From: a bacterium
Lineage (GTDB): Bacteria; Auribacterota; UBA3054
Reading direction: 5' to 3'
DNA: 32,866 nucleotides
Assembly (NCBI GenBank): GCA_017539325.1
Contig: JAFYHD010000146.1
Location: forward strand, 1 to 32,866
The notes under the pieces were generated by a model. It had not been told where the DNA came from, ran no database searches, and saw nothing but the letters and a program-made list of their open reading frames with translations. Position 1 is the stretch's first letter, and each line of letters opens with the position of its first letter. A program made the translations under genes and the position numbers. Below are positions 11,309 to 31,330 of the stretch, piece after piece.

Positions 11309-11318
11309 TTTTTTCTCC

Positions 11319-13276: not shown

Positions 13277-13277
13277 G

Positions 13278-13772
13278 TTATTTTTCCTCCTGCTTCTCGA
13301 CCTTCGCTTCCTCTTTCACTTCTTTTTTCTCTGTTTCTTTCTCCGCGAGACTGGGGTCAAGCTCGGTGTATCTCTTCCTGGCCGCGGCCGCCTCTTTCTG
13401 GCGTCCGAGCTTCGTTAGGGAATCGACCACTCTTTTGGGAACGTCCTTGTCGTTCGCGAAGGTGGGGTCAAGAGCCTCGGCGCGGTAGTAGTAGGCGACG
13501 GCGTTGGCGAAATCGAGCTTGTCGTAATAGATGTTGCCGATAGTAACACAGACGCCGGGCCTTTCCTTGGCCGGGATCTGATAATCGCTGAGATATTTCT
13601 GCAGCTCTTTGGCGGCCTGCAGGTCGAGCCCTTTGGTCCTTAAGGTTACGGCGAGCGCCCTCTGCTGCTCAGCGGTCCAGTTCTCCGCCTTAGGCGGGAA
13701 GTAGAGCCTGTAGGCGATCAGAAGGAGCAGTATGAAGCAAAGTATCTGTATGAAGGAAATAATTTTTGACAT
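13278..13772 (-). CDS. Small membrane-anchored TPR protein
   Basis: The 164-residue protein has one N-terminal membrane helix (about 6-24), then TPR-like helices (about 36-135), with GNIYYDKLDFANAVAYYYRA as the clearest repeat. A tail rich in Lys and Glu follows (about 143-164). TPR helices mediate protein contacts, so it may scaffold the MoxR-DUF58-VWA complex. It lies 4 nt after the DUF58 stop, without a clear ribosome site, and 1 nt before the lipoprotein gene, which points to translational coupling. No family name is assigned with confidence. Confidence 0.7.
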   Translation of the reverse strand: MSKIISFIQILCFILLLLIAYRLYFPPKAENWTAEQQRALAVTLRTKGLDLQAAKELQKYLSDYQIPAKERPGVCVTIGNIYYDKLDFANAVAYYYRAEALDPTFANDKDVPKRVVDSLTKLGRQKEAAAARKRYTELDPSLAEKETEKKEVKEEAKVEKQEEK

Positions 13773-13776
13773 AAGT

Positions 13777-14658
13777 TTAGAAAATGGTTTTTTCCCGGCG
13801 TTTGAAGAAGCGGACGATCTCGTCGGCGTAGTTGGCGCCCGTCGAGACGCGCATGGAATCGACGCCCGAAGAGGTGAAGTTCCTGTCGCGTTCCTCGTTC
13901 CTCATGAGCGAGAGTTTTTCCAAGGTGCGGCGGACTTTGCCGTCGTAAGTGTCGACCGTTATGGCTTCGCCGGTCTCGGCGTCCTCTAAAGTGATGAGGC
14001 CTATAGGCGGGAGAGAGCTTTCCCTCGGGTCGGAAACGGCGACCGGGATGAGGTCGTGGCGCTTGCTGGCGAGGTTGATGGGCTTCTCAAAGCCTTCGCA
14101 CAGAAAGTCCGAGATAAGGAAGACCACGGCTTTCCTACGGCAGACCTTGTTGAGGAAGTCAAGCGCGGAGCCGACGTCCGTTTTGGAACGCTCGCTCTTC
14201 TTGAAGCCCAAGACTTCCCTTATCACTCTCAGAACGTGGGAGTGGCCTTTCTTCGGCGGGATGTAGAGCTCGATCTGATCGGTGAAGATGATCAGCCCGA
14301 CGCGGTCGTTGCTTCTTATGGCGGTGTAGGCCAGAAGGCCCGCGATCTCCGCGGCGATCTCGTTCTTGCTTTTCGTCAGAGATCCGAAGGCGCCGGAAGA
14401 GCTCGCGTCCACCATCAGCATGACGGTCAGCTCGCGCTCCTCGACGAAGCGCTTCACATACGGCACGCCGGTCCTGGCCGTGACGTTCCAGTCGATGGTC
14501 CTGATGTCGTCGCCGGGCTGGTAGAGCCTGACTTCGTCAAACTCCATGCCGCGCCCTTTGAAGGCGCTTTTGTATTCGCCGGCCATGACTTCGGTCACCT
14601 GATGGCTGGTCCTGATCTGGATCTGGCGGACTTTCTGGAGCAGTTCTTTGGATAACAT
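13777..14658 (-). CDS. DUF58 protein, MoxR partner
   Basis: The 293-residue protein has the DUF58 signature: GRGMEFDEVRLYQPGDDIR (35-53), IDWNVTAR (55-62) and VKRFVEERE (68-76). After it comes a VWA-like fold with DASSS (84-88) in the metal-site position. DUF58 genes nearly always follow moxR; MoxR ATPases are thought to act on DUF58/VWA proteins. No membrane helix is seen, so it is probably cytoplasmic. AAGGAG (14672-14667) lies 8 nt before the ATG. The gap to moxR is 32 nt. Confidence 0.92.
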   Translation of the reverse strand: MLSKELLQKVRQIQIRTSHQVTEVMAGEYKSAFKGRGMEFDEVRLYQPGDDIRTIDWNVTARTGVPYVKRFVEERELTVMLMVDASSSGAFGSLTKSKNEIAAEIAGLLAYTAIRSNDRVGLIIFTDQIELYIPPKKGHSHVLRVIREVLGFKKSERSKTDVGSALDFLNKVCRRKAVVFLISDFLCEGFEKPINLASKRHDLIPVAVSDPRESSLPPIGLITLEDAETGEAITVDTYDGKVRRTLEKLSLMRNEERDRNFTSSGVDSMRVSTGANYADEIVRFFKRREKTIF

Positions 14659-14690
14659 CTTAATTTCTCCTTAAGCAAAGGGAAAATTTA

Positions 14691-15680
<990 letters not shown>

Positions 15681-15691
15681 GTTTTCTCCTT

Positions 15692-16561
15692 TTAGATGTA
15701 AAGCTCATCCGTTTCCTTTTGACGGTTGGGCTTGTTACGGATTAATAATTCTTTCAAAAAATCATAGGCGCGCTTTTCCTCCATGGCGGAGGGCTCGTAG
15801 CCGGCGTAGCGCACGTTGAAGCAGAGGGCGCAGACCTCTTTGGCGGTCCTCAGCATCCTCTGGTCAACGCTCATTTCCTTCGCTTCCTTTTCGCCGAAGG
15901 AATCGAGGTCGGCTATGGAATATTTGGCGCGCAGGTAGTTTCTGATCAGGCTTTCGCACTTTCCGAAGTAGGCGGCTTGCTCGCCCTTCAGTCTCAGCTC
16001 CTTGCTTTCCTCCAGTTTCGCGAGGTATTCTTCCTCGAGATTCTGTTCGGGAAGCGCTTCAACTTTCTTCGCGCCCTTCTTTCTGATGACGAGGAAAACC
16101 AGCGCGGCAACAAGGACGACGGCAAGGGAAACAGCGATGACGAGCCAGGGGAGAGCGGCGCCCCTTACGTTCAAAGTCACGCCCGCCAGATCGGAGCTAG
16201 CGAATTCGCTGTCCTTCAATCCCCGCGACATGACCTCGATGAGGCCGGTCTCGACGGAGGACCCGGGAGCGTTCGTGACCAAAAGATCGATGACGTAGGT
16301 CGCGGTGTGCTGGACCCCGCCGACGCCCGGCTTCGACTCGTTGTAGCTGACGATGTCTTTAATCAGGGCGCCTTTCAGTTCCTTGAAGCGGGGAGTGCGC
16401 ACGGAGATCGTCTCATAGCCGGTCCAGGTGGCCGTCATCTTAAGCTGCGTGCTCTTCTGCGAGACGACGTTCGTGCTCTCGGGCAGGATCTCCCAAATTA
16501 CTTCCGAATGGACGCTCAGCGCCAGAAGGAAGACCGCCAGTATGTAAGAAATGTTACGCAT
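15692..16561 (-). CDS. Secreted beta-domain membrane protein with BatD-like tail, first gene of the Bat operon
   Basis: The 289-residue protein has a signal peptide (about 1-19), a short beta-type domain (about 20-132), one membrane helix (about 138-159) and a helical inner tail (about 170-280) with AAYFGKCESLIRNYLRAKY and CALCFNVRYAGYEPS (244-258). The tail ending resembles BatD's RIEMARFAGNYGP. It was not recognised as a named family. The start at ATG 16561 gives a clean signal peptide; an in-frame TTG at 16600 would add 13 polar residues before it and is rejected. No strong ribosome site is visible. As the first gene, it may be the membrane partner of MoxR. The candidate operon promoter and a palindrome lie 60-90 nt upstream. 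Confidence 0.7.
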   Translation of the reverse strand: MRNISYILAVFLLALSVHSEVIWEILPESTNVVSQKSTQLKMTATWTGYETISVRTPRFKELKGALIKDIVSYNESKPGVGGVQHTATYVIDLLVTNAPGSSVETGLIEVMSRGLKDSEFASSDLAGVTLNVRGAALPWLVIAVSLAVVLVAALVFLVIRKKGAKKVEALPEQNLEEEYLAKLEESKELRLKGEQAAYFGKCESLIRNYLRAKYSIADLDSFGEKEAKEMSVDQRMLRTAKEVCALCFNVRYAGYEPSAMEEKRAYDFLKELLIRNKPNRQKETDELYI

Positions 16562-16615
16562 GCCGGATATATTGCAAAAATCGTGCCAATAATTAACCAA
16601 CTATGTTTGAGTAAT

Positions 16616-16789: not shown

Positions 16790-19312
16790 ATGAAACGAGT
16801 TCTTATAGCTTTGCTGCTCCTGGTCTGCGTTCCGGTTTTCGCCGGCGTCGTCTATCAGGAAGATTTTGAAAGCTACGAAGTGGGCACCCAGATGGCCGAA
16901 CAGGAAGGCTGGGAATTTTACAACGATTACAAAGGCAACACTACGGTGGTGACCAACGCTCCCAATATCGAGTCCAAGGCCATGGAACTGAGCCAGTCTT
17001 TGGACGGCTCCACCGAGTACGTCATGGTCCTGACTCCGACCTTCGACGCCAAGCCTGAAAGTATCTTCAAAGAGGTCACCAAGGTCTCCACGAAAGTTGT
17101 CTCCAGTTCCGGCACCGATCTTTTCGCGCTCTATGACAAGAACATGAACCGCTTCTTCTATCTGCATCTGAACGCGGTGGACGGCTTGATGGCTTCGAAC
17201 CCGGGCGGCGTTTCCTTTGATAATTTCAACTCCGACGGTCTGACCCCCAACGAGATCTCTTTCGTTTTCGACCATCTCAACAATCAGATCACGTCTGTGA
17301 CCTGCAACGGCGAGACTCAGGAATGCGCCATTATGCTGGAAACCACCTGCGAACAGCCGTGGAGACTGCGTCTTTCCACGTATCTTGGCAGTTTGGTCGA
17401 AGGCGCCGCCGGCACCTACTATGACTACGTTACGGTCGAGAATGTGAACCGCGCCGAAGAGCCCACCATCTTCTGCGACAGCGACGCGGTCATTCCTCTT
17501 GATTCCACCAGCGCGGAGTTCACGCTCTTCAACGGCGGCCCCGAAGGCGAGATCAACTTCAGCGTCACGACCGACGCCGATTGGCTGGAAGTCACTCCCG
17601 ACAGCGGCACCTTCACCGACTCCACCGCCCTTACCCTGAAGGCCAAGGAAGACATGCCCGACGGCTTCTACCGCGGCAGCATGACCGTCTCCGGCGGCGC
17701 CGGCGAACCGAAAGTGGTTTCCGTCATGTGCTCGAAAGGCAACGTTATCTTCGAAGAAAAATTCGACGATATGGAAGACGGCTCAATCGTCGGCCAGCGC
17801 GGCTGGACGCTTGACATGGGCGAAGTCATCGTCACCAACGCCTACGATTGCAGCGGCAAATGCATGTTCATTTATGGCGCGGGCGGCAACAACGCCTGCA
17901 GCATGTACCTGCCGGAAGCTTGTTGGTATGAAAACCTTGTGGTGAAGGTCTCCTACGACGTGTATTGGCCTGTCGACGGCACGGCCACCGACGTCTGCAT
18001 GCTGCAGAAAAACAGCCACGAAAAGTTTGAAAACTACGTTTCGAGAGACGACAGCGGCGAAGGTTTCAAACTGGTGAACATCCAGAAGCAGAGCGGCGCC
18101 AAGAGCATCAAGAATTTCCCCCTCGCCTCCTATGACAAGTGGGTCACGGTCGAATACACGATCGACCTCCAGGCCAACATGCTTCTCAGTTTCGGCTGGG
18201 ACGGCGCCATCACCAACTTCAACAACTTCCAGCTGAAGAAACCCGAAGTGAATTTCTACAATTCCTGGGGATATGCCGTTTGGGATAACGCCAACGGTGT
18301 TCTTGAATGCAATCACGGCATCGACAACTTGAAGGTCGAAAGAGTCGAAAGGGAAGCGGATCCTACTTTGATCGTTCCCATGTCCGCCTCTGTCGGCGTT
18401 AACGAAAGCGCCGCAATCACCGTCTTGAACGGCGGCAAAGGCACCTTCGACTATACGGCTGAAGTTCTCGATCTTCCCGAGAACGTCACCCTTGATCCAA
18501 GCAGCGGAACCGTTGAGGAAACTCAGGAAGTGACGCTCACCGTTGACAGGGAAGGCTTAGAGGACAACTACTATCGCACCAGAGTTGTGTTCAACGCCGG
18601 CGAAGCCGGATGCGCCACCACCATCGTTTCCTTTGTGGTAGGCGGCGTTTATTACTCCGCCGACTTTGAAGAACCGTTCTTCACGCTTGGTGACTTTGCC
18701 GGCCAGGACGACTGGGGCGACAACAACCCCGGCGCCAACGTTGCCTACGTCCTCAGCACCAACGACAACCAGACCGTGATGATCGAGATCGGCGGCGGTT
18801 ACGGCGGCTACTACCATAGCCTTGACGTGCCCGCCAACAACCTCGTCAGATTCGACTGCGACGTCTTCCTCCCGCCCGCCATCTTTGAAAGGGAAGATCT
18901 GATCGGCAGGGAAGTCATTTACTTCAAGCAGAACAGCATGTACTCTTCCGCCGCTGACATCACGCTGGACATCGACTTCATGGACGGCGTTCCCATTGTT
19001 TACGGTCTCGACCACGCCAACGACTACATGTTCTCGACGACCGAGTACGCTGAGGATTGGATGCACGTTTCCTACGTCATCGACTACAAGGAAGGCTTGC
19101 TCACGGAATTCACCATCGACGACAATTCCGAATATCCCGTGGACGCCTACATCAATGACTCGTACAAAGGCGCCGGCTGCAACCTCTTCTGCCTGTGCGT
19201 CACCTATCAAGGCAACATCCAGTTCGACAACGTCAAAGTCAGCGTTGTTCCTGAACCGGCTGTCTTAGGCTTCCTCGCTCTCCTTGCTCTGGCTCTCATC
19301 AGACGCAAATAA
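16790..19312 (+). CDS. PEP-CTERM surface protein, alternating LamG-like and BACON-like modules (copy 1)
   Basis: The 840-residue protein has a signal peptide (1-19), then LamG-like module A (about 22-218, starting EDFESYEVGTQMAEQEGW), BACON/Ig-like module 1 (about 227-317, with DADWLEVTPDSGTFTDS), LamG-like B (319-518, FDDMEDGSIVGQRGW), Ig-like 2 (525-618, with LDPSSGTVEE), LamG-like C (620-818, FEEPFFTLGDFAGQDDW) and a PEP-CTERM tail from VPEP (819-822): hydrophobic helix and RRK. The tail predicts exosortase processing. BACON-type domains often accompany glycan-binding proteins, so carbohydrate or cell-surface contact is plausible. Conserved paired cysteines (for example DCSGKC, CNLFCLC) suggest disulfides. 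Module names rest on sequence feel; no catalytic site was found. It is the first of three paralogues and has its own terminator. Confidence 0.8.
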   Translation: MKRVLIALLLLVCVPVFAGVVYQEDFESYEVGTQMAEQEGWEFYNDYKGNTTVVTNAPNIESKAMELSQSLDGSTEYVMVLTPTFDAKPESIFKEVTKVSTKVVSSSGTDLFALYDKNMNRFFYLHLNAVDGLMASNPGGVSFDNFNSDGLTPNEISFVFDHLNNQITSVTCNGETQECAIMLETTCEQPWRLRLSTYLGSLVEGAAGTYYDYVTVENVNRAEEPTIFCDSDAVIPLDSTSAEFTLFNGGPEGEINFSVTTDADWLEVTPDSGTFTDSTALTLKAKEDMPDGFYRGSMTVSGGAGEPKVVSVMCSKGNVIFEEKFDDMEDGSIVGQRGWTLDMGEVIVTNAYDCSGKCMFIYGAGGNNACSMYLPEACWYENLVVKVSYDVYWPVDGTATDVCMLQKNSHEKFENYVSRDDSGEGFKLVNIQKQSGAKSIKNFPLASYDKWVTVEYTIDLQANMLLSFGWDGAITNFNNFQLKKPEVNFYNSWGYAVWDNANGVLECNHGIDNLKVERVEREADPTLIVPMSASVGVNESAAITVLNGGKGTFDYTAEVLDLPENVTLDPSSGTVEETQEVTLTVDREGLEDNYYRTRVVFNAGEAGCATTIVSFVVGGVYYSADFEEPFFTLGDFAGQDDWGDNNPGANVAYVLSTNDNQTVMIEIGGGYGGYYHSLDVPANNLVRFDCDVFLPPAIFEREDLIGREVIYFKQNSMYSSAADITLDIDFMDGVPIVYGLDHANDYMFSTTEYAEDWMHVSYVIDYKEGLLTEFTIDDNSEYPVDAYINDSYKGAGCNLFCLCVTYQGNIQFDNVKVSVVPEPAVLGFLALLALALIRRK

Positions 19313-19336
19313 AAGAGCGCTTCTCTAACAAAAAAA

Positions 19337-19363
19337 GGCCCGGCCCATGCCGGGCCTTTTTTT
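19337..19363 (+). terminator. Terminator after PEP-CTERM copy 1
   Basis: GGCCCGGC-CCAT-GCCGGGCC (19337-19356) is a perfect 8-bp GC stem with a 4-nt loop, followed by seven T. The A run on its left would allow weak action in the other direction. Confidence 0.95.
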
Positions 19364-19400
19364 GTTATTAATGTATAATTATCTTGGTTTTTTTAAGGTA

Positions 19401-19429
19401 TTAATTTTCAAGGTCTTGTTTTGTATAAT
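19401..19429 (+). promoter_or_regulatory. Predicted promoter of PEP-CTERM copy 2
   Basis: A perfect TATAAT (19424-19429) lies 17 nt after a weak TTAATT (19401-19406). A second TATAAT at 19374-19379, also preceded by TG, lies 50 nt upstream but has only terminator sequence where its -35 would be. The leader from the first is about 45 nt. Confidence 0.5.
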
Positions 19430-19480
19430 CTTAGGTACAAATCTGTGGAAATTTTTAATCAACGAACAAAAGGTGTTTTA

Positions 19481-22006
19481 ATGAAACAGCTTCTTATCCT
19501 TTTTCTCTTCGGCGCGCTGTCCCTCGCCGCTGAAACGGTGATCCTTGAGGAGAACTTCGAAAGTTACGAAGTCGGAACTCAGATGTCCGAACAGGAAGGC
19601 TGGGGAATTTTGGGCAACTTCACCGGCAACACCACGGTCGTCACCGGCATTTCCGGATTTAGCGGCAAGTGCATGGAAATGAGCAGGTCCGAGGACGGCA
19701 ATCCCAACGATGTGGTGGTGATGATGCCGGGCGCGGATCTTGTTCCGGCGGATCCTTTGAAAGAGCTCACGAAAGTCTCGCTTTCCTTCGTCTGCTCCAC
19801 CGAAAACGATATGATAGCGCTGCACGACGCCAACGGCAACCCCTTCTTCTATCTCCGCTGCAACTCAGTGAACGGCGCGTTGGTCAGCGTGCCTGGCGGC
19901 GTTTCTTTCAGCAATCTCTACAAGGACGGCCATACTCCCAACACCTTCTCAGTGATCTTGGACTTCAACGATAAAAAGGCCGTTGAAGCAACTTTGAACG
20001 GCGTTACGCAGGAATGCGCCGTCGAGTTCTCCGGCAGCTGCGTGATGCCCACCAGGCTGTACTTTTACGTGCAGCTCTCCACCATGCAGGAAGGCTGCAC
20101 CGCCTCCTATTTCGACGACATCCTGATCCAAACCATTCCCCGTCCCGCCGGCCAGGCCATCATCTGCGACGACAGCGCGCTTATTCCACTCGACAAGACC
20201 GAGGCGCAGTTCACCGTAAAGAACGGCGGCGAATCCGACATCACCTTCACGGTGACATCCGACGACGAGTGGCTGGCAGTTACGCCTGACAGCGGCACCT
20301 TCAGCGACAGCCAGACGCTTACGCTCTCCGCCAAGGAAGGCTATCAGGACACTTTCCGCCGCTGCAACATGACAATTGACGGCGGCTTGGCCGGAACGAA
20401 AGTCGTTTCCGTCATGTACCAGGGCGGCAACATCATTTTCAAGGAAGACTTCGATTCCATGACGGACGGCACCATAGTAGGGCAGCGCGGCTGGACGCTT
20501 GACGTCGGCGACGTGGTCATCACCAACGCCTACGAATGCGAAGGTAAGTGTATGTTCCATTATCTCTCCGGCGGCAACAACGGCTGCAGCATGTATCTGC
20601 CGCAGCCCTGGTATGAGAACATGATCGTAAAGGTCAGCTACAAGCTCTATTGGCCCAGCACCAGCGGCGCCACCGGCGTCTGCCCGCTGCAGAAAGATTC
20701 CGGCACCACGGAAAAATTTGAGGCCGGCTACGTGCCCGACAACAGCGGCGAAGGCTTCACACTTTCCTACATCAACAAGCTGAGCGGCGGCAGCACGGTC
20801 GCCAAATCCATCCGCGATTTCCCGATCGCTCCCTACGACCAGTGGGTGCCGATCGAGTACACCCTCGACCTGCAGACGCAGAAACTTCTCTCTTTCGGCT
20901 GGGACGGCACAATTACGAACTTCGTGAACTGGTCTCTGCCCAACCCCTCCTGCAATTACTTCTGCTCCTGGGGACACGCCGACTGGGATCCCACGGGCCC
21001 CACCGCGCTCCACGCCATCGACGATCTCACCATAGAGAGAGTGCCCAGGTCCCAGGAAGCCACCCTTATCGCCCCGACTTATGTCAGCGGCGGCGTTGAA
21101 CCCTTCTTCACCATCGAAATGCGCAACGGCGGATCCGGCAGTTTCGACTACACCGCGGAGATCTTAGACATTGACGACGCTTTGAAGATCAACAGGCCGA
21201 CTGGCACCATTAGTGACGTGGGCACTATCACCGTGACCCCCGACAGGAGCCAGCTTGACGAAAATTATTATCACGCAAGGGTAAGGATCGACGCCGGGGA
21301 AGCCGGCTGCGTGACTTCCATCGTCGCCTTCGTGGTCGGCAACGTCTATTACTTCGCCGATTTCGAGGAACCCTTCTTCCATTCCGGCGACATCACCGGC
21401 CAGGACGATTGGATGAACGACAACCCCGACTGGAACCTCGCCTACGTTCTGACCACCAACGATCAGCAAACCCTCTGCGTAGAGACCGGCGGCGGCTGGG
21501 GCGGCTACTATCACAGCCTCGACGTACCCAGAAACAACTTCGTAAGGTTCGAGATGGATATTTTCGTCCCGCAGGCGATCTTTGAAGATCCCGACAGGCT
21601 CACCAACCCCATCCTGCACTTGAAGCAGAATGACAAATACAACCCCTCCATAGAGCTGAGGATCGCTCCCGACCTGATGGACGGAGTGCCCATTCTGGTG
21701 GGCGACGCCGTGGGCTACGAAGACTATCCTTTGGCCATCGCTGATTATCCGGATGATTGGACGCATTTGAGCTATACCATAGACTACCTGGAAGGCAGTC
21801 TGGTGGAATTCAGTATCGGCGATGTCACCACGTTCCCGGAGTATGTTTACACCAGGGACTCCGACGTGCCCTGCACGCTGTTCTGCGTTTGCGTTGGCAG
21901 CGAGGTGGATCTCCAGGTGGACAACGTCAAAGTCAGCGTCGTTCCCGAGCCGGCCGCATTCATGATCCTTGCGCTTGCGGCTCTGCTCGCGAAAAGGCGG
22001 GGATGA
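19481..22006 (+). CDS. PEP-CTERM surface protein, alternating LamG-like and BACON-like modules (copy 2)
   Basis: The 841-residue protein has the same plan as copy 1: signal peptide (1-17), LamG-like A (about 22-220, ENFESYEVGTQMSEQEGW), BACON/Ig-like 1 (about 227-316, DDEWLAVTPDSGTFSDS), LamG-like B (about 319-520), Ig-like 2 (about 525-615) and LamG-like C (from FADFEEPFFHSGDITGQDDW), then VPEPAAF with a hydrophobic helix and KRRG. In module A it has drifted more from copies 1 and 3 (GISGFSGKCMEM replaces APNIE-KAM). The start ATG 19481 is preferred over an in-frame extension from 19421 because it gives a clean signal peptide after AAAGGTG. No terminator follows, and the next gene starts 55 nt on, so read-through into the phosphodiesterase gene is likely. 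Confidence 0.8.
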   Translation: MKQLLILFLFGALSLAAETVILEENFESYEVGTQMSEQEGWGILGNFTGNTTVVTGISGFSGKCMEMSRSEDGNPNDVVVMMPGADLVPADPLKELTKVSLSFVCSTENDMIALHDANGNPFFYLRCNSVNGALVSVPGGVSFSNLYKDGHTPNTFSVILDFNDKKAVEATLNGVTQECAVEFSGSCVMPTRLYFYVQLSTMQEGCTASYFDDILIQTIPRPAGQAIICDDSALIPLDKTEAQFTVKNGGESDITFTVTSDDEWLAVTPDSGTFSDSQTLTLSAKEGYQDTFRRCNMTIDGGLAGTKVVSVMYQGGNIIFKEDFDSMTDGTIVGQRGWTLDVGDVVITNAYECEGKCMFHYLSGGNNGCSMYLPQPWYENMIVKVSYKLYWPSTSGATGVCPLQKDSGTTEKFEAGYVPDNSGEGFTLSYINKLSGGSTVAKSIRDFPIAPYDQWVPIEYTLDLQTQKLLSFGWDGTITNFVNWSLPNPSCNYFCSWGHADWDPTGPTALHAIDDLTIERVPRSQEATLIAPTYVSGGVEPFFTIEMRNGGSGSFDYTAEILDIDDALKINRPTGTISDVGTITVTPDRSQLDENYYHARVRIDAGEAGCVTSIVAFVVGNVYYFADFEEPFFHSGDITGQDDWMNDNPDWNLAYVLTTNDQQTLCVETGGGWGGYYHSLDVPRNNFVRFEMDIFVPQAIFEDPDRLTNPILHLKQNDKYNPSIELRIAPDLMDGVPILVGDAVGYEDYPLAIADYPDDWTHLSYTIDYLEGSLVEFSIGDVTTFPEYVYTRDSDVPCTLFCVCVGSEVDLQVDNVKVSVVPEPAAFMILALAALLAKRRG

Positions 22007-22018
22007 AATTTGGTTTTT

Positions 22019-22027
22019 TGTTAAAAT
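22019..22027 (+). promoter_or_regulatory. Extended -10 box before the phosphodiesterase lipoprotein gene
   Basis: TGTTAAAAT fits an extended -10 (TGn-TATAAT with one mismatch). The ATG is 35 nt downstream. No -35 is evident. The same nonamer precedes two other genes in the window. Confidence 0.45.
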
Positions 22028-22061
22028 AGAGTAAACAAATAAACCGATACGAGAACAAGTT

Positions 22062-22982
22062 ATGAAACGATTTCTCCTCCTTATCCTGGCGGCTCTGGCC
22101 CTCTGCTCGGCCTGCACCGATAAAGATAAAGAAGGGCCGAAGGCCGGGCACGTCATTTTCATCGCCGTTGACGGCGTGTCTACGCCCGCCTTTAAGGATC
22201 CCAAGCTGCTGGAAAGGCTCCCGAACCTCAAGATGATGATGGAGCAGGGCAGCTACACCCTGGAAAAACGCTCCGTGATGCCGTCGGCTTCGGCCATCAA
22301 CTGGGCCTCCATTTTCAACGGGCTTCCCACGGAGCAGCACGGGTTTGGGCATTGGAATTCCTTAAAGCCCGAGATCCCGCCCGTTTTGGACAACGGCAGG
22401 GGAATGCCGCCGACCATCTATACGCTGCTTAGGGAACAGCGTCCGGACGCTGAGACCGGCTGCGTATACGACTGGGACGGCATCGGTCCGCTCATCGACG
22501 AGGAGGTCATCAACTATCACCTGTACCGCAAGCCGGACAGCAGCGCGCTTGAAAAGTATGTCAGGGAAGACGCCGTCAGGTATATCCTGGAGAAGAAGCC
22601 GACGTTCTTCACAGTTTACATTGGCGAACCGGACGAAGTGGGTCATAATGAAGGCTGGGATACGCCCAAGTATTATGAATGTTTGGAAGAGACCGACCGG
22701 ATGGTGGGCATCATAATCGAGGCCTGCAAGGAGGCTGGCATCATGGACGATACGATCTTCGTCTTCTCGTCCGACCACGGAGGTTCGGAAAAAGGGCACG
22801 GAGAACTTAAGATGCTGCATCTTGAGACGCCCTTAATTCTCTACGGAAAACATATCCGCAAGGGCTTCGTCCTTGACGAGCCGGTGATGCAGTACGACTT
22901 GGCCGCCACACTCTCCTACGCTTTGGGACTGAAGATCCCGCCGGCCTGGCGCGGTCGTCCGCTGACATCAATGTTCGATTAA
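22062..22982 (+). CDS. Lipoprotein of the alkaline phosphatase/phosphodiesterase superfamily
   Basis: The 306-residue protein has an N-terminal lipoprotein-like signal ending at Cys18 (CSAC; the -3 residue is atypical). The body looks like the type I phosphodiesterase/nucleotide pyrophosphatase fold: metal-binding Asp37 in FIAVDGVS, a nucleophile segment SASAINWASIFNGLPTEQHG (75-94) with Ser77 in the place of the usual Thr, GEPDEVGH (188-195) with Asp191 and His195, and SSDHGG (236-241) with Asp238 and His239. These spacings match the two-zinc site. The substrate could be a nucleotide, a phosphodiester lipid head or a phospho- or sulfo-modified glycan; a sulfatase is less likely because the CxPxR signature is absent. 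It is shorter than most relatives. It lies between two PEP-CTERM paralogues on the same strand with short gaps, so a joint surface role is plausible but unproven. Confidence 0.75.
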   Translation: MKRFLLLILAALALCSACTDKDKEGPKAGHVIFIAVDGVSTPAFKDPKLLERLPNLKMMMEQGSYTLEKRSVMPSASAINWASIFNGLPTEQHGFGHWNSLKPEIPPVLDNGRGMPPTIYTLLREQRPDAETGCVYDWDGIGPLIDEEVINYHLYRKPDSSALEKYVREDAVRYILEKKPTFFTVYIGEPDEVGHNEGWDTPKYYECLEETDRMVGIIIEACKEAGIMDDTIFVFSSDHGGSEKGHGELKMLHLETPLILYGKHIRKGFVLDEPVMQYDLAATLSYALGLKIPPAWRGRPLTSMFD

Positions 22983-23000
22983 TGGAAAAGCAAATATTTT

Positions 23001-23009
23001 TGTTAAAAT
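23001..23009 (+). promoter_or_regulatory. Extended -10 box before PEP-CTERM copy 3
   Basis: TGTTAAAAT again, 37 nt before the ATG at 23046. AAACCGAT follows at 23015-23022; the same octamer follows the box of the phosphodiesterase gene (22041-22048) at a different spacing. Confidence 0.45.
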
Positions 23010-23045
23010 TATAAAAACCGATTAACAACCAACACAGGATGAATT

Positions 23046-25583
23046 ATGAAACGAATCCTTATTCTTTTGGCGCTCCTTTCCTTCGCCGCCTCCAATCTGG
23101 CCTTTTCCGATACCCTCTATCGGGAAGATTTCGAAGCGTATGAAGTGGGAACGCAGATGACAGATCAGGAAGGCTGGGATTTCTACAGCACCTACACCGG
23201 CAACAGCACGGTTGTGGACAACGCTCCCAATATCGAGGGCAAAGCCATGATCCTTTCTCCCTCCGCGACCGGTCACGACGAATACGTCATGGTATTGACG
23301 CCGAGCGTTGATCTTACGACGCCTAATGCGGCGGCCAATCTGGTCACCGTCAGCGCCAAAGTCATAATGGCCAGCAGCATCGATCTTTTCGCCATCTATG
23401 ACAAGGACATGAACCGCTACTTCTATCTGAAGGGCAACCGCGCCGACGGTACGCTGGAAAGCTACCCCTCCGGCGTCGTTTTCAGCAACCTCTACACCGA
23501 CGCGACGACCCCCGACGAGATCGCTTTCGTTTGGGATCCCTTCGAACAGAAGGTCGTAAAGGTCTCCTGCAACGGCGAGGAAAAGGAATGCAGCATTCTG
23601 CCCAGCGGCACTTGCGCACAGCCTTCCAGGCTGCGCCTTTCCCTGCAGCACACTTCCTTGGACGGCGCCGAGGGCACTTACTACGATTATGTGGACGTTT
23701 CCTATTCGCCCCGTTCCGCCGATCCTATGCTTTACTGCCCTGAAGAAGCGCTCATCCCTCTGGATGCCGAAAGCGTTGAATTCGAGATCTACAACGCCGG
23801 CCCGGACACCACCACCATCAACTATTCCGTCACCACCTCCGGCGATTGGCTGAGCGTCACTCCGACTAGCGGCTCATTCAACGAATCCGCAATCCTGACT
23901 CTGAAGGCCGCGGAAGGTTTGGAAGAAGGCTTCTACACCGGCTCCATGACCGTTGACGGCGGCGATGCCGGAACGAAAGTCGTTTCCGTCACCTGCTCCA
24001 ACGGCAACGTGATCTTCGAGGAGAATTTCGACGACATGGAAGACGGCAACATCGTCGGCCAGAAGGGCGGCTGGACGGTGGACGTCGGCAACGTCGACAT
24101 CACCAACGCCTACGACTGCTCCGGCAAGTGCATGTTCATGCACCGCTGCGGCGGCAGCTACGCCTGCAGCAGATACTTGCCGAAGCCCTGGCCTTCTAAT
24201 ATGATCATCAAGGTCAGCTACGACCTCTACTGGCCCAGCGACAGCAACTGCGACGACTCCTACGTTCTCATGAAGGACAACGGCCAGAACGAAAAGTTCG
24301 AAGGCCAGTTCATGCCCACCTATCCCGACGGCCTCGGCATCAAGATGATCAAGAGAAGCAACAAGGACGGCAGCGAGCAGGAAAAACGCGTCAAAGATTT
24401 CCCGCTCTCTCCTTTTGACACCTGGAACAGGGTGGAATACTGCCTTGACCTGCAGAGCCAGAAGCTTCTCTATTTCTCAATGGGCGAGAACGTCACCAAC
24501 TTTGTTGACTGGCCCTTGATGAACCAGGGCTGCAACTTCTTCAACTCCTGGGGCCATTCCGCCTGGAACGGAGTGGAGGACGGCAGCCGTGTGGCGGTCG
24601 ACAATTTGAAGATCGAAAGAATCCCCAGAGAGGCAGATCCTGAGCTGGTGGTTGACAAGTTCGTTTCCATCGGCCTCGACGAAAGCATCGCTTACAGCGT
24701 CCGCAATGCCGGCGCCGGAAGCTTCGACTTCACGGCGGAAGTCCTCGACCTCGACGACGCTGTCACCTTAAGCCAGACAAGCGGCACGGTGGAAAGCTCC
24801 GTCGACATCAACGTCGCTGTCAACAGGGAAGTTTTGGAAGACAATTACTACAGGTTCAGAGTCAGAGTGGACGCCGGGGAAGCCGGCTGCTCCACCACCA
24901 TCTTCGCCTTCGTGTCCGGCAACGTCTATTACTTCGCCGACTTTGAGGAGCCTTTCTTCACTCTCGGCGACTTCGCTGGTCAGGACGAATGGGTGGACGA
25001 CAACGGCGGTGAAAACATCGCCTACATCTGCTCCACCAACGACCAGCAGTCCCTCTACATGGAATACGGCGGCAACTGGGGCGGTTATATGCACACTTTG
25101 GAAGTTCCCAGCAGCAGTATGGTGAAGTTCGAGTTTGACGTTTTCGTTCCGCCCGCCATTTTCGAAGATCCCGAATGGATGGATCAGACCATACTCTATC
25201 TAAAGCAGAACAGCAAAACCAGGCCTTCTAAGGAGCTGATGCTAAGCGTCACTTCCGTTGAAGGCGTTCCGTATGTCTACGCTACGGCCAAAGACTACGA
25301 CATGACGTTCTGCGAAACGGAATACGCGAACGAATGGATGCATGTCTCCTATGTCATCGATTACCTTGAAGGCTATGTGACCGAATTCACGATCGACGAC
25401 AACACCTTCACGACCGATGAGCTGGTCACCGAAGACGCCGGCGTGCCCTGCACCCTGTTCTGCCTGTGCGGCGCTTACACCGCCAATCTGACCTTCGACA
25501 ACGTCAAGGTCTCGGTCGTTCCCGAACCGGCCGCGCTCGTCGCGCTCATCGCGCTTCTGGCCCTCGGCCTTCGCCGCAGATAA
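23046..25583 (+). CDS. PEP-CTERM surface protein, alternating LamG-like and BACON-like modules (copy 3)
   Basis: The 845-residue protein repeats the plan of the first two copies: signal peptide (about 1-21), LamG-like A (EDFEAYEVGTQMTDQEGW onward), BACON/Ig-like 1 (SGDWLSVTPTSGSFNES), LamG-like B (FDDMEDGNIVGQKGGW), Ig-like 2 (TLSQTSGTVESS), LamG-like C (FADFEEPFFTLGDFAGQDEW), and a PEP-CTERM end from VPEPAAL to RRR. Module A is closest to copy 1 (VDNAPNIEGKAM). Conserved cysteine pairs recur (DCSGKC, CTLFCLC), while an extra Cys appears in the MHRCGG segment. No enzymatic motif is visible. Anchoring would need an exosortase encoded elsewhere. CACAGGAT precedes ATG 23046 as a weak ribosome site. 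A strong bidirectional terminator follows. Confidence 0.8.
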   Translation: MKRILILLALLSFAASNLAFSDTLYREDFEAYEVGTQMTDQEGWDFYSTYTGNSTVVDNAPNIEGKAMILSPSATGHDEYVMVLTPSVDLTTPNAAANLVTVSAKVIMASSIDLFAIYDKDMNRYFYLKGNRADGTLESYPSGVVFSNLYTDATTPDEIAFVWDPFEQKVVKVSCNGEEKECSILPSGTCAQPSRLRLSLQHTSLDGAEGTYYDYVDVSYSPRSADPMLYCPEEALIPLDAESVEFEIYNAGPDTTTINYSVTTSGDWLSVTPTSGSFNESAILTLKAAEGLEEGFYTGSMTVDGGDAGTKVVSVTCSNGNVIFEENFDDMEDGNIVGQKGGWTVDVGNVDITNAYDCSGKCMFMHRCGGSYACSRYLPKPWPSNMIIKVSYDLYWPSDSNCDDSYVLMKDNGQNEKFEGQFMPTYPDGLGIKMIKRSNKDGSEQEKRVKDFPLSPFDTWNRVEYCLDLQSQKLLYFSMGENVTNFVDWPLMNQGCNFFNSWGHSAWNGVEDGSRVAVDNLKIERIPREADPELVVDKFVSIGLDESIAYSVRNAGAGSFDFTAEVLDLDDAVTLSQTSGTVESSVDINVAVNREVLEDNYYRFRVRVDAGEAGCSTTIFAFVSGNVYYFADFEEPFFTLGDFAGQDEWVDDNGGENIAYICSTNDQQSLYMEYGGNWGGYMHTLEVPSSSMVKFEFDVFVPPAIFEDPEWMDQTILYLKQNSKTRPSKELMLSVTSVEGVPYVYATAKDYDMTFCETEYANEWMHVSYVIDYLEGYVTEFTIDDNTFTTDELVTEDAGVPCTLFCLCGAYTANLTFDNVKVSVVPEPAALVALIALLALGLRRR

Positions 25584-25607: not shown

Positions 25608-25642
25608 AAAAAAAGGCGGAGGAATTTTTCCTCCGCCTTTTT
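25608..25642. terminator. Bidirectional terminator between PEP-CTERM copy 3 and addA
   Basis: GGCGGAGGAA (25615-25624) pairs with TTCCTCCGCC (25628-25637) around a 3-nt loop, with an A run on the left and five T on the right. It serves both convergent transcripts. Confidence 0.93.
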
Positions 25643-25653
25643 CTTTACGCTGA

Positions 25654-28584
25654 TCACATCTCCAAATAGACAAGTTCGCCCGTGATATTCTCAAGATTGT
25701 AAATATCTTTGAGCACTTTTACATAAAGGTCTATCTGTACCTGGTTCTCCTCGTGCGGATGCCCCGTCTTGAAATCGTAAACGACGATCCTTTCCGGAGC
25801 CTGCGCGCTGGGAAAGAAATGCACCCTGTCCATGATGCCTTTCACAAGCTTGTCTTCTATCAGCGCCATGAATGGCATCTCGCGCCGCACTTCGCATTCC
25901 TCCGCGGGCTTTACGAAAACGTTCTCAGGATGCCTTGCAATGTAAGCGTCAATGACCGCCTTCGCTTCCGCGGCATCAGGGGAGGCAAGCTCGGCGGGCG
26001 CGGAGACCGCGTCGGAAAGCCATAGGATGCTCTCGCAATAGGCGTGGATCGCGCTTCCGCGCCGCATGGCCTCGTCCCTTTCCTTGGCGACAAACGGCAT
26101 CTCCTCGCTGATCTCTTCCTCTCTTTCCTCCTCTCCCAGCTTGGAAGGAGAGATGACTTGCCGTCTTCTTGTCATGCTGCTGTTGAAAGCAGGGGAGAGG
26201 AAGGTTTCGGTTTGCTCACTGTCTGGCTTCCCAGATTGTTCCTTTTTGTACCAGTCGCTTTTCCCGACAGAGCCTTCCAGCTCCTGCAGTTGGGAATTAA
26301 TCATGTTTTCGGAATTTGACTTGTTGCAGACGATATAGAGAGCCTTGGCAGCCCTTGTCAGGGCTACGTAGAAAAGGTTGCAGTTTTCCAGACAATTTTT
26401 ATCAAGAAGTTCTTTTTCCAAATCGTAGTATTCTTCGGAAGCGAAATACGCGATCTTGTTGCATTTCTTGATAAAAGTCGACACTTGCGGCCGCTCGAGA
26501 TCTTTGGAAGTAATCTCGCCTCTAAGATAGCTGCCGGTTTTGAGCTCGCGTAAAGGAAGATCTTTTACCGGCACCACGACCATGTCGTAGGTAAGGCCTT
26601 TGGCCGTATGTATAGTGGAGACGATTACTTTTCCAGTGTCGGATTTTTCGCGTGGATGCTCGTAAGTTTCGATATAATCGATAAGGTCTTCCAAGTTGTT
26701 CGGGTGTCCCTTGTAGGCGGCGATCGCCAGCATAAAATCGGAAAGGTTCCGGGAAACGCTTCTGGCTTCGGCGGGATCGGCGTCCTCTTTCCAAGCCGCC
26801 AGCAGACGGGATACCGTTTCAAAAACGCCGTCACTAAGAAGCCTCCTTCTCCAGCCGGAAAGCGTTTCCTCAAGGTTGCCTTCCATAAAGAGCGCCTTCA
26901 GGGGAGAATTCCTAAGAATAAATAGGGAAAGCGTGTCGCCGGGATCGGCCAGGCAGCGCAAAAAGGCCAGCATGATCCTGGTCTCGGGATAATCTTTTAT
27001 GGTGACGTTGGAGGATGAGGCGCAGGGGATGCTCCGTTCTTTCAGCAAGGCGAGCACTGCTTCCACCTGGTCGTTTTTTCGGCAAAGGACGGCGGAAGAA
27101 AGGCCGTGTTTCCAAGGTTCGACTTCCTCCAATGGTTTGACAGTCGCCTCAAAAATATCCTTCGCGTCCTCGACAAAACTTATGGAAGCAAAGCCTGAAC
27201 CACCGATAGCGGAGACATGTTCACTGTAATCGACATCACTGGCCCATTTGGTGAAACAGGGCAGAGCGAAGACGCGATTTACCATGGTCAGGATATCCGG
27301 AACGGAGCGGTAGCAAGTGGAGAGCCGCTCTACTTCGAAGCCATCGCTATAACGTTCGAGGAATTTGTTGAAAATCTCGGGGGAACTGCCGCGCCAACTG
27401 TAAATGGATTGCTTAACATCGCCAACCACGAAAAGACTTTTTTCCTCGTCGGATACCGCTTCTCCCACCAGGGGGTGCATGATCTCCCATTGCTGCCAGG
27501 AAGTGTCCTGGAACTCGTCTATTAGGAAATGGCTGATTCCGGCATTGAGCCGGAAATAGACGTCCAGTCCGATCTCCGGGATCGCCAGAAGTTTCGAAAC
27601 GGCCAGGGAGACGTCGGAGAAGGTGAAGATATTCCGCTCGAATTTAAGGGCCAGCAGGACTTTCTGGTAATCCCGGGCCAGCTCGTAGGCCGCCGTCGTT
27701 TCGCCGCACTTTTTCATGATCTCGCGGGTGCCGAGATAGCGCAGCATATTTTTCAGATCCTCCAGCGACTCTTCCGTCAGCATCAGTCCGTCAATGGCCG
27801 ACCAGTCAGGTTTGCCGTATTTAAGGAGATTTTTAACTTGGGAATTTTTATTGGTAAGATCAGAGCATTTCCCGGTAGATGCCGCTTTGGAAATAGCGTC
27901 GAAAAGCGTTTTCAAAACGCTTTCCTTCTTCGGAAGAGAAGTATGCAGTTCTTTCAGATCACAGGATGATACCGGGGAACTGAGTCGTATTTTCGCTACG
28001 GTTTCCGGCGGGATGGAGAGACTCTGCTTTCCCAGCCTCCCTAGCTCCTCCAGAACTGTTTTGGAGACGTGGCGCAGCTCTTTGTCTTCGCTCAGCGACG
28101 AGAGCAGGTAGAAAAGGCTGGCGGGCTTCCTGCTCTTCAGAACCAAAAGTTCGTTCAGAGCGTCTTTCAGCAATTGATTTTGGAACTTTTCGTCGAGGAT
28201 CTCCACTGAGGGATCCAAACCGAGATCGAAAGCGAAACAGCGCAGAAGTTTATAGAAGAAACTGTCATAGGTTGAGACCTTGGCTAAAGGCAGTTCCTTG
28301 ATAAGCAGCGCCAGCCATTTTTCGCAATCTTCCTTGCTGGGGACGCCGTCCAATTCCGCGGAAACATAAAGCTCCCGCAATTTTTTTTCGCAAAGAACGG
28401 CGTTCACCAGATCCAGCAGGATGCGCTGAAGCATTTCATGTGCCGCGGCTTTTGTGAAAGTGAGCGCCACTATCTCCGAGGGGCGGACACCCAGGCTCAG
28501 GAGTTTGATATATCGCTTGGCCAAGCGGAAAGTTTTGCCCGTGCCGGCGGAGGCGATGATGGCGCTGTTGGCTATCATTGGCAT
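25654..28584 (-). CDS. addA: AddA-type helicase-nuclease subunit
   Basis: AddA is the motor and nuclease of AddAB, which resects double-strand DNA breaks for RecA loading. The 976-residue protein has Walker A ASAGTGKT (11-18), motif Ia ALTFTKAAAHEM (40-51), motif II LIDEFQDTS (354-362), motif III VVGDVKQSIYSWRG (386-399), motif IV STCYRSVPDIL (422-432), motif V VSTIHTAKGLTYD (655-667) and motif VI NLFYVALTRA (736-745). A C-terminal RecB-type nuclease follows: His848, GIMDRV Asp919, Asp937 and Lys939 in YDFKTG, and QIDLYVKVL. All catalytic residues look present. It is shorter than many AddA proteins (about 1200). ATG 28584 has GAGG 8 nt upstream and overlaps the addB end by 10 nt; the ATG at 28578, which forms ATGA with the stop, is the alternative. 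Confidence 0.92.
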   Translation of the reverse strand: MPMIANSAIIASAGTGKTFRLAKRYIKLLSLGVRPSEIVALTFTKAAAHEMLQRILLDLVNAVLCEKKLRELYVSAELDGVPSKEDCEKWLALLIKELPLAKVSTYDSFFYKLLRCFAFDLGLDPSVEILDEKFQNQLLKDALNELLVLKSRKPASLFYLLSSLSEDKELRHVSKTVLEELGRLGKQSLSIPPETVAKIRLSSPVSSCDLKELHTSLPKKESVLKTLFDAISKAASTGKCSDLTNKNSQVKNLLKYGKPDWSAIDGLMLTEESLEDLKNMLRYLGTREIMKKCGETTAAYELARDYQKVLLALKFERNIFTFSDVSLAVSKLLAIPEIGLDVYFRLNAGISHFLIDEFQDTSWQQWEIMHPLVGEAVSDEEKSLFVVGDVKQSIYSWRGSSPEIFNKFLERYSDGFEVERLSTCYRSVPDILTMVNRVFALPCFTKWASDVDYSEHVSAIGGSGFASISFVEDAKDIFEATVKPLEEVEPWKHGLSSAVLCRKNDQVEAVLALLKERSIPCASSSNVTIKDYPETRIMLAFLRCLADPGDTLSLFILRNSPLKALFMEGNLEETLSGWRRRLLSDGVFETVSRLLAAWKEDADPAEARSVSRNLSDFMLAIAAYKGHPNNLEDLIDYIETYEHPREKSDTGKVIVSTIHTAKGLTYDMVVVPVKDLPLRELKTGSYLRGEITSKDLERPQVSTFIKKCNKIAYFASEEYYDLEKELLDKNCLENCNLFYVALTRAAKALYIVCNKSNSENMINSQLQELEGSVGKSDWYKKEQSGKPDSEQTETFLSPAFNSSMTRRRQVISPSKLGEEEREEEISEEMPFVAKERDEAMRRGSAIHAYCESILWLSDAVSAPAELASPDAAEAKAVIDAYIARHPENVFVKPAEECEVRREMPFMALIEDKLVKGIMDRVHFFPSAQAPERIVVYDFKTGHPHEENQVQIDLYVKVLKDIYNLENITGELVYLEM

Positions 28585-31286
28585 AGCAGTTCCTCCACGG
28601 AAGCGAAGCGTTCCTCCGCGGACATTTCGCAGAAGAAACGGTAGGGACATTTTTCGCAGATCTTGTTTTTCGGATCGTAAACATTCCCGAAAGAACTTTC
28701 CCTAATATCCGCCAGTACGGCTTGTAGCCTGATCATGGGCGTTTCAAGTTCCCGCTCGAGATAGAAAGCGGTCTGCCGTTTTTCGCCGCTGAAACTAACG
28801 AAGGATGACCGCCAGGATGACATCGGGTAACGTTCCTCAAGCAATGCGGCATAGGAGCTCATCTGCATATCGTCTTCCAGGTCTTTTTCTGTTTTCGCGG
28901 CGGCTCCGGTCTTGTAATCCACGACGCAGAATTCTTTTTCACCTTTCTGATCCAGTCTATCGAGACGTCCTGTGAGGACGATCCCGTCGATCTCCTTTTC
29001 CAGTTTTTCTTCCGCCTGCACTATCCGCCAGCCTTCCTCTTCGCGCCTGCAGTGTTCTAGAGAGAAGGGCTCGAATTTTCTTACGAGTTGATTCAGCTGG
29101 AATTCTGCCAGGGCGGGCGGAAAGCTTGTCAGTTCCCGACGTTTCACGGTTTCCAGGGAATCGATCAGGAATTTTTCGCATTCTTCGTAGTCAGTACTCA
29201 AGCGGCCTTCGATCTTCGCTTTGGCGAAAAGCTCCATTACTTCGTGGGCGATGTTGCCCAGGAAAAGGGGCGACAGTTCATTATAGATCCTGCTTTTTCC
29301 TTCCACTCCCAGCTGCCGCAGGGCGAACTTGAAAGGACATTCCAGAAAATCGTTGAGCCTTGACACGCTGATGCGCTTAAGGCTATGCTCCAATTTTTCC
29401 CTGATATGAAAGCTGAGTTCTTTTTCGGGGATTTTTGGAAGGAAAAGGGAAGGGAAAAGCCTTTTTTCACCAGAACTTTCGGAGTAGAATTTCCTGATAT
29501 ATTCGGCCCTGGCGCGAATGCTCTCACTCTCGTCGCAAAGCAGCGGGGAAAGATCCCGGAAGGAGCCGTCCAGGGACTGTTTGCAGGAGAAGAGGCAGGT
29601 TTCCGCGGCAGGTTCCACGAGCGTTCTTAAAAAGTAGCGGTCTCTTCTCAGTATGTCCTCGCAATTCGTCATTCCAAGCCGCGTTTTGAGCTGGTCCGGC
29701 AGAAAAATATCGGCGGACTCTCTCTTGGGCAGAATGCCTTCGTTAAGGTCGCAGATAATTATGACCGGAGAATCGTCGAGGAAAACTTCCAGCCAGCCCG
29801 TAAGGTCTATGGCGTTCGTTTCAGTTTGAGAAGTAATATGGATCTTGCGCGCTGCTTTTGAAAGGCGATTAAGGAAGGCGAATCCGGAAATGTTTCCTTC
29901 TCTGATTTTCGATGAAGACAGGGCTATGGCATACTCCGTCAGCTTTTCCCAAGCCGAGGCGTTCTCGGGGGTTTGGCCTGGTAAGATTTTAGCGAGAGTC
30001 TCCCTGAATACTGTCAGCCATTCTTGTTTCAACCTTTCTTGACGCCAGGGCTCCAGAAACGCTTCCAGCCAGTCGTAGACTTGTCTCGCCGTTTCGTTGC
30101 CGGTCTTGGCGAACATCCAGTCTTTGGGATATTCGCCCAATGTTTTCTCGAGGCTGTCCAGCCAGCCTGGCAGAAAGTCTTCAAGATGATTTTTCGTCAC
30201 GGCTCGTTCCAGGCAGGGCAGGCGCAGCGCTCTCAAGTAGGCGTAAACGTCCGGCTTTTCCAACAATTCAGTAATGGATCGCAGGAACATGCCGGCTTCC
30301 GTTTCCGCGAAAGGCCGTCCTGAGGCTTCGTGTATCTGGATCTTTGAGGTTTTTCCCAACTCTTTCAAAAAAGGAACGAGATCGCCGTCCTGGGTTGCCA
30401 CGGAGACGTCGCTGCAAGACAGTTCGCCGTTAGGGGAAAGTTCTCTAAGTTTCGCGAAGACGCCTTCCGCTTCGGTTGGAGGATCGGAGAAGATCATTAT
30501 CGATCCGGTTTTGGGAGAGAGGGGAGGGAAGAGAGCGTCTTTTTTGAGAAGGCCTTTTTCGTCGAACCAGTCTTCCCCGACCGCCATGACGCTGACGTCG
30601 AAGTCCGGCCTTTCGTAAAGCGCTTCCAAGAGAGGTATCCTTTCGCGGTAGCCGATGACATACAGCTTTCTTTTTTCGCCGGGGGGTGAATTAAGAAAAT
30701 CTTCAAGAGACAGGCACTCGTCCTTTAGCCCGCTTTTCTCAAGTTCCACGAGGTAGCGTGCAAAAAGCTCTTCCAATTCTTCCCAGCGCTCGCTTTCCCT
30801 TTCTCCGGCCATGTCTGTCAATGCTTCCCTGACTTTGTGGCAATTGACAAGATTCAGCGCCAGCTCTTTTCTCAGTTCCTCTAAACGCTCGCTGAAACTT
30901 ATGAGCACGCTTTCCGGTATATCCGTTTCCTCTGATCTGAGGGCGAAGACTTTTTCCAGACGGCCGCGCTCAGCGTCAAGGGCTTTCCTCCAGATGTCCA
31001 GGACCTCAAAAGGGGAGGCGAGGGAAACGCCGGCGGCCTCCCGGGCCAGGCGGCGCAGGAAGGAGATGTCGGTCTCGGTCTTCGGGGGCAGGAAGAGCAG
31101 CTTTTCCCTGGCGCAGATCTCGGATAGGATCTCCAGGAACCTTCGCCCGGCGCGCTGGCCGGGCAGGATGAAGGTTATGGCGCTGAGGTCCAGGAGGCTC
31201 TTGTTCCTCAGTTCCTTGACGAGCTCTTCCGCGATGGTTCTCAGGACCGCGCGGCCGGGCTTTACTGTTTTCAGAAGTTTAATCAC
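28575..31286 (-). CDS. addB: AddB-type subunit with Fe-S nuclease domain
   Basis: The 903-residue protein (GTG start at 31286) is the partner of AddA. The N-terminal helicase-like part has no intact Walker A; the expected place reads LPGQRAGRRF (about 41-50), so it is probably an inactive, Chi-scanning-type helicase fold. The C-terminal nuclease keeps GRLDRL with Asp776, VVDYKTG with Asp790 and Lys792, and QMSSY. Four cysteines fit the AddB iron-sulfur staple: one in FLECPFKFAL (about 650) and three in CEKCPYRFFC (about 877, 880, 886). The family member resembles the proteobacterial/PVC AddB form lacking an ATP site. The start is uncertain: the extended -10 TGCTATAAT at 31301-31293 would place the transcript start almost at the GTG, giving a near-leaderless message; an in-frame TTG at 31304 overlaps that promoter. 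Confidence 0.88.
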   Translation of the reverse strand: MIKLLKTVKPGRAVLRTIAEELVKELRNKSLLDLSAITFILPGQRAGRRFLEILSEICAREKLLFLPPKTETDISFLRRLAREAAGVSLASPFEVLDIWRKALDAERGRLEKVFALRSEETDIPESVLISFSERLEELRKELALNLVNCHKVREALTDMAGERESERWEELEELFARYLVELEKSGLKDECLSLEDFLNSPPGEKRKLYVIGYRERIPLLEALYERPDFDVSVMAVGEDWFDEKGLLKKDALFPPLSPKTGSIMIFSDPPTEAEGVFAKLRELSPNGELSCSDVSVATQDGDLVPFLKELGKTSKIQIHEASGRPFAETEAGMFLRSITELLEKPDVYAYLRALRLPCLERAVTKNHLEDFLPGWLDSLEKTLGEYPKDWMFAKTGNETARQVYDWLEAFLEPWRQERLKQEWLTVFRETLAKILPGQTPENASAWEKLTEYAIALSSSKIREGNISGFAFLNRLSKAARKIHITSQTETNAIDLTGWLEVFLDDSPVIIICDLNEGILPKRESADIFLPDQLKTRLGMTNCEDILRRDRYFLRTLVEPAAETCLFSCKQSLDGSFRDLSPLLCDESESIRARAEYIRKFYSESSGEKRLFPSLFLPKIPEKELSFHIREKLEHSLKRISVSRLNDFLECPFKFALRQLGVEGKSRIYNELSPLFLGNIAHEVMELFAKAKIEGRLSTDYEECEKFLIDSLETVKRRELTSFPPALAEFQLNQLVRKFEPFSLEHCRREEEGWRIVQAEEKLEKEIDGIVLTGRLDRLDQKGEKEFCVVDYKTGAAAKTEKDLEDDMQMSSYAALLEERYPMSSWRSSFVSFSGEKRQTAFYLERELETPMIRLQAVLADIRESSFGNVYDPKNKICEKCPYRFFCEMSAEERFASVEELLCQ

Positions 31287-31292
31287 AAGGCA

Positions 31293-31301
31293 ATTATAGC
31301 A
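31293..31301 (-). promoter_or_regulatory. Extended -10 promoter of addB-addA
   Basis: TGCTATAAT on the minus strand is a perfect extended -10 element. Its end is 7 nt from the GTG start of addB. A -35 box is not evident. It faces the divergent TGTTAAAAT at 31331, only about 30 nt away. Confidence 0.55.
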
Positions 31302-31330
31302 CAAGTTTCATTGCCGGAAGGGCCAAAATG

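Follow-up and report, generated by a model that had tools for sequence, protein, structure and literature searches.

A genus-restricted family of exosortase-tagged proteins built from predicted concanavalin-like and BACON-like modules

What kind of proteins do three similar, closely spaced bacterial genes encode, and what might these proteins do? The genes lie in the window, the stretch of 32,866 nucleotides analysed here. The original prediction described their products, from the letters alone, as a tandem array of proteins of 840, 841 and 845 residues at 16790-25583, forming an undescribed family of surface or exopolysaccharide-associated proteins. In the present work, we examine this description by means of profile comparison, structure prediction and comparison with related genomes. 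We will show that the three proteins, called P1, P2 and P3, are a real, well-conserved and genus-restricted new protein family. Their kind is already familiar, namely that of exosortase cargo made up of lectin-like and Ig-like modules, and they do not constitute a new system.

All three open reading frames were found at the predicted place and with the predicted lengths. Their features, together with those of an intervening gene (PDE), are the following.

16790-19312, plus strand: P1, open reading frame for an 840-residue protein with signal sequence, modules A-Ig1-B-Ig2-C and PEP-CTERM tail
16838-17467, plus strand: P1 module A, predicted concanavalin-like (residues 17-226 by module HMM; profile comparison, structure model)
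17459-17740, plus strand: P1 module Ig1, BACON_2-like (residues 224-317 by module HMM; Pfam match)
17732-18352, plus strand: P1 module B, predicted concanavalin-like (residues 315-521 by module HMM; profile comparison)
18344-18649, plus strand: P1 module Ig2 (residues 519-620 by module HMM; hhalign match to Ig1)
18632-19240, plus strand: P1 module C, predicted concanavalin-like (residues 615-817 by module HMM; AlphaFold2 model of 18641-19246, Foldseek)
19247-19309, plus strand: P1 PEP-CTERM tail, consisting of VPEP, hydrophobic helix and RRK (PF07589, 18.0 bits, below the cut-off)
19481-22006, plus strand: P2, 841-residue protein (counted from the ATG), plan as in P1
19529-20158, 20150-20428, 20420-21049, 21041-21346 and 21329-21934, plus strand: P2 modules A, Ig1, B, Ig2 and C
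21941-21997, plus strand: P2 PEP-CTERM tail
22062-22982, plus strand: PDE, 306-residue lipoprotein-type protein of the phosphodiesterase/alkaline-phosphatase superfamily (PF01663, 1.2e-26)
23046-25583, plus strand: P3, 845-residue protein, plan as in P1
23103-23729, 23721-24005, 23997-24629, 24621-24926 and 24909-25511, plus strand: P3 modules A, Ig1, B, Ig2 and C
25518-25580, plus strand: P3 PEP-CTERM tail

P2 and P3 align with P1 end to end at 52-54% identity, which is far above chance. Each protein starts with a hydrophobic signal sequence, recognized by inspection, and ends with VPEP, a transmembrane helix and basic residues; in the full-length AlphaFold2 model these parts appear as helices 2-16 and 828-844. 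The signal peptides and VPEP tails foreseen for all three are thus present as predicted features, the tails scoring 18-19.4 bits against PF07589, for which the curated cut-off is 20.7. Conserved cysteine pairs had also been noted. The near-invariant cysteines are there (C182, C231, C358, C362, C374, C615, C802 and C808 in P3 numbering), while their pairing is only putative. In agreement with the reported lack of catalytic motifs, no match to enzyme families was obtained for P1, P2 or P3. The tandem array holds as a set of three paralogues but not as an uninterrupted run, PDE being situated between P2 and P3.

The internal architecture was examined with module profiles, cut from a 24-row ortholog alignment according to the five proposed modules and compared profile against profile with hhalign. 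The E-values obtained were 9.5e-7 for A against B, 3e-7 for B against C and 9e-12 for Ig1 against Ig2, the link between A and C running through B alone, while the reversed-sequence controls all gave E-values of 0.04 or worse. Each protein can therefore be described as a chain that alternates between two kinds of homologous modules, (ConA-like - Ig)x2 - ConA-like - PEP-CTERM. The BACON-like assignment is confirmed for Ig1, which passes the curated cut-off of BACON_2 (PF19190, 25 bits) in P1, P2 and P3 with 45.6, 48.6 and 42.8 bits (E-values of 7e-12, 8e-13 and 5e-11, respectively). For LamG (PF13385, Laminin_G_3), P1-P3 gave no Pfam match at E<=1, and sub-threshold weak matches were seen in 4 of 42 module sequences from paralogues. 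The A-Ig-B-Ig-C plan is common to all three proteins, as proposed, but is not unique to them: the (ConA-like - Ig)n chain comes in several lengths, and at least ten further PEP-CTERM proteins of the same genome carry longer or shorter chains of these modules according to the module HMMs. In a 2368-residue protein of a sister species (G006, L031:4252-11355), the whole cassette is flanked by Kelch and InlB-like repeats, and the protein has no PEP-CTERM tail.

The full-length AlphaFold2 model of P3 is all-beta, with a mean pLDDT of 85.4. As a fold query it turned out to be uninformative, with stacked Ig domains of low TM-score dominating the matches, and a single-module model was therefore used instead. 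Module C of P1, folded alone with 42 relatives, reached a pLDDT of 93.9 and a pTM of 0.90. A Foldseek search of this model against the PDB returned 71 matches at E<=1e-3, with ConA-like folds dominating the best 50 of the 71. The best match is TtX122 (TM about 0.6), and others include the lectin domain of galactocerebrosidase, calreticulin, Emp46/47, VIP36, ERGIC-53, L-type lectins, the bacterial lectin YwfG, PL7 lyases, GH16 and CBM22. The matches are moderate, with TM-scores of about 0.6 and sequence identities of 8-14%, and the nearest solved folds are mostly domains that bind or act on sugars. They support a predicted concanavalin A-like beta-sandwich for module C, despite the lack of Pfam LamG matches in P1-P3. 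Of the proposed LamG/concanavalin-like modules, it is thus the concanavalin part that is borne out, by structure prediction and by the weak matches in paralogues, and not LamG as defined by Pfam.

Searches of the solved structures by sequence, using single proteins and profiles of the family, gave no match, and no homologue of described function was found by sequence search. With the positive outcome for the fold, the proposal that exosortase-tagged surface proteins of ConA-like and Ig/BACON-like modules form an undescribed family is supported.

The family is present in all eight species of the genus, with 30-40 matches in each, and the relatives' named records are ruminant gut assemblies from yak, water buffalo and goat. 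Among the seven remaining genomes of the order, no family match was seen at E<=1e-5, and at the phylum level the full-length profile finds no match outside the genus at E<=1e-6 in 37 genomes. The profile of the B/C-type module gives 32 matches in this genome of 2 Mb, compared to 37-53 in its sister species; outside the genus, with 44 phylum genomes searched, it gives two single weak matches (3.5e-5 and 2e-4). In the tree, P1, P2, P3 and a fourth paralogue, P4, form separate ortholog clades, with P4 as the sister of P2. P4 is absent from the array of the window, present in G003 and G004 with an extra N-terminal A module (L074:7460-10600 and L075:11573-14713), and found as a fragment in G002. 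Across species the order of the paralogues is fixed between a Bat operon and an AddAB-like pair, and the ortholog dN/dS values of 0.12-0.29 show purifying selection. Taken together, the separate clades, the fixed order and the dN/dS values indicate that the duplications predate the genus and that the copies have been kept by selection. In the window, the array is flanked by a complete-looking Bat/MoxR operon at 6077-16600, which is encoded by the minus strand and diverges from P1, and by an AddA/AddB-like helicase-nuclease pair at 25654-31304, convergent with P3.

Notwithstanding the name 'viral BACON', a phage or plasmid origin is unsupported. A PHROGs search gave no match, plasmid and phage records contain no match to P3, and in a viral structure library only generic LamG-like phage proteins were matched by fold.

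Regarding the sorting machinery, profile searches indicate about 34 proteins with PEP-CTERM tails in the genome and a single exosortase (PF09721, 1.2e-34, contig C127). This is a 686-residue protein (L014:5887-7947), fused at its C-terminus to a DUF3485/EpsI-like domain and surrounded by housekeeping genes, with a YbbR/CdaR-like gene and pyrF as neighbours. In other families of the order, the open frames that hold the exosortase matches are comparably long (712-776 codons). Within the genus, seven of the eight species have one exosortase, and the assembly of the remaining species is 83% complete. The expected co-occurrence with the family is thus seen, but it is not specific: the exosortase is present in 33 of 44 phylum genomes and the full-length P1-P3 family in eight alone, so that the co-occurrence carries no specific information. 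The exopolysaccharide association, on the other hand, finds no support. Wza/Poly_export (PF02563) was found in none of three genomes of the genus, and the exosortase lies in no recognizable polysaccharide locus, no polysaccharide genes being seen on its 9.8-kb contig, although polyprenyl sugar-phosphate transferases (PF02397) are present in all three genomes. The classical exopolysaccharide link thus appears to be weak in this genus. Exopolysaccharide synthesis and export genes are a general correlate of the exosortase, rather than a property of the cargo itself (Haft 2006, PMC1569441).

The gene set, the module homology, the predicted folds, the sorting signal, the purifying selection and the presence of an exosortase gene are established by computation, whereas export, cleavage, surface location and glycan binding are inferred. 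The single exosortase would cut the PEP motif of P1-P3, and the proteins would reach the cell surface or an extracellular layer. Each would stand there as a rod, in which three concanavalin-like modules are spaced by two BACON-like Ig modules; BACON-type Ig modules have been proposed as spacers (PMC11216935). The rods would bind glycans multivalently, be it those of plants, of mucus or of the cell's own surface, and would act as adhesins or matrix proteins. As a precedent, exosortase or PEP-CTERM mutants no longer form biofilms or adhere to the polysaccharide that they make themselves (PMC12188702), or, in another case, no longer flocculate (PMC9850573). We lean, by a small measure, towards this reading of P1-P3 as non-catalytic, exosortase-sorted, multivalent glycan-binding rods, with the glycan binding suggested by the predicted fold. 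Ligands that differ between the paralogues would account for the retention of all three old duplicates. It is important to point out that the fold gives no guarantee of sugar binding, as neither enzymatic activity nor plant cell wall binding was detected for TtX122 (PMC10916295).

This last result would also fit a structural surface-layer or matrix coat, in which the rods would pack against one another or against the outer membrane, the ConA-like modules serving as scaffolds that bind no sugar. The large number of modules per genome, the different lengths of the chains and the many near-invariant cysteines point in the same direction. However, the paralogues have diverged by about 50%, yet every one of them is conserved from species to species, a pattern more easily explained by distinct partners than by a single repetitive coat, and we consider the coat to be a rather unlikely, yet real, competitor to the glycan-binding rods.

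Another option is that the four genes constitute one unit, in which PDE would remove a phosphodiester substituent from the glycan to which P1-P3 bind or are anchored. PDE is predicted to be an enzyme by its metal-site motifs, PDEVGH and SDHGG, which are kept across species. It is 83-93% identical between species and unchanged in position, being located between P2 and P3 wherever that stretch is assembled; the order P2-PDE-P3 is seen in G000, G003, G004, G005 and G007, and P2-PDE followed by the start of P3 in G001. Synteny inside a single genus is nevertheless weak evidence for joint function, and a terminator separates P1 from P2. The relevant elements are:

19334-19364, plus strand: intrinsic terminator after P1, GGCCCGGC-CCAT-GCCGGGCC followed by T7
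25608-25644, no strand assigned: candidate stem-loop terminator in the gap that separates P3 from the convergent AddA-like gene

The terminator after P1 recurs in four other species (G003, G004, G005 and G007) and is strong, so that P1 is probably transcribed alone. Upstream of P2, a conserved non-coding stretch at 19380-19445 (GTATAATTAT...GTATTAATTTTCA...TATAAT), common to G000, G003, G005 and G007, is probably a promoter. The counts from the promoter and terminator scans are at chance level, the P1 terminator alone being backed by the four other species. A search for a common promoter or 5'-UTR motif of the PEP-CTERM genes supports no claim, as TTTGnTAnAAT is found genome-wide and TTAACC shows no more than a weak enrichment. 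A joint function of PDE with P1-P3 is conceivable, and the one-unit arrangement seems improbable to us.

Finally, it is very unlikely that at least one module is a hidden polysaccharide lyase or hydrolase of ConA-like fold: the fold matches include structures of PL7 and GH16, and the adjoining PDE has enzyme motifs, but P1-P3 lack any enzyme family match, and the residues invariant over the 42-row module alignment (F, G, Q, W, W and D) correspond, to our knowledge, to no catalytic set of PL7 or GH16.

Compared to known systems, P1-P3 share with the PEP-CTERM/exosortase cargo of Haft 2006 (PMC1569441) the signal sequence, PEP motif, transmembrane helix and basic end, the many cargos per genome with one exosortase, and the little homology to known proteins. 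They differ in that no Wza-type export protein was found, the exosortase is outside an EPS locus and fused to an EpsI-like (DUF3485) domain, and the chains consist of homologous ConA-like/Ig modules. The BACON/BACON_2 + DUF1735 spacer-lectin proteins of Bacteroidota (PMC11216935) similarly display a surface Ig-like spacer beside a LamG-type or other binding module. There, however, the Ig domain stands at the N-terminus of a lipoprotein, next to what is usually the only partner module, and often in a polysaccharide utilisation locus, whereas in P1-P3 the Ig modules alternate within the chain, which ends in a PEP-CTERM tail; LamG3 is rarely found with BACON/BACON_2 (PMC11216935). TtX122 of Teredinibacter (PDB 8q28, 8q29 and 8q2a) is the closest in fold, an extracellular beta-jelly-roll with a TM-score of about 0.6, but it is only 13-14% identical, belongs to redox proteins and has shown no binding or activity. 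Bacterial L-type lectin adhesins (YwfG, the SasG A-domain) carry a ConA-like lectin fold on the cell surface, as predicted for P1-P3, with other anchoring and with undetectable sequence similarity.

PEP-CTERM proteins are numerous, and we know of a ligand for almost none of them. Being small and genus-limited, with a lectin-like fold predicted at high confidence, old conserved paralogues and one exosortase, the present family is a clean set for testing the ligands of exosortase-sorted proteins, and it also allows one to ask whether exosortase sorting works without the classical exopolysaccharide export route. As a more speculative and rather doubtful extension of the glycan-binding reading, one rumen genus may have built its cell surface from a single (ConA-like - Ig)n family of its own, expanded to about 30-50 modules in each 2-Mb genome. 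A fusion of exosortase and EpsI would sort the chains in the absence of a Wza-type system, and each chain would have its own glycan. If true, the cell surface would be a modular system whose function parallels that of Sus-type or cellulosome-scaffold displays.

Two further observations concern other genes. The same genome encodes large S8 subtilases that carry Ig-like modules as well as PEP-CTERM tails and may be surface proteases (L023:7642-12195 and L024:2-3685). In the window, the stretch 777-2633 encodes a Ser/Thr protein kinase domain joined to at least two LysM domains.
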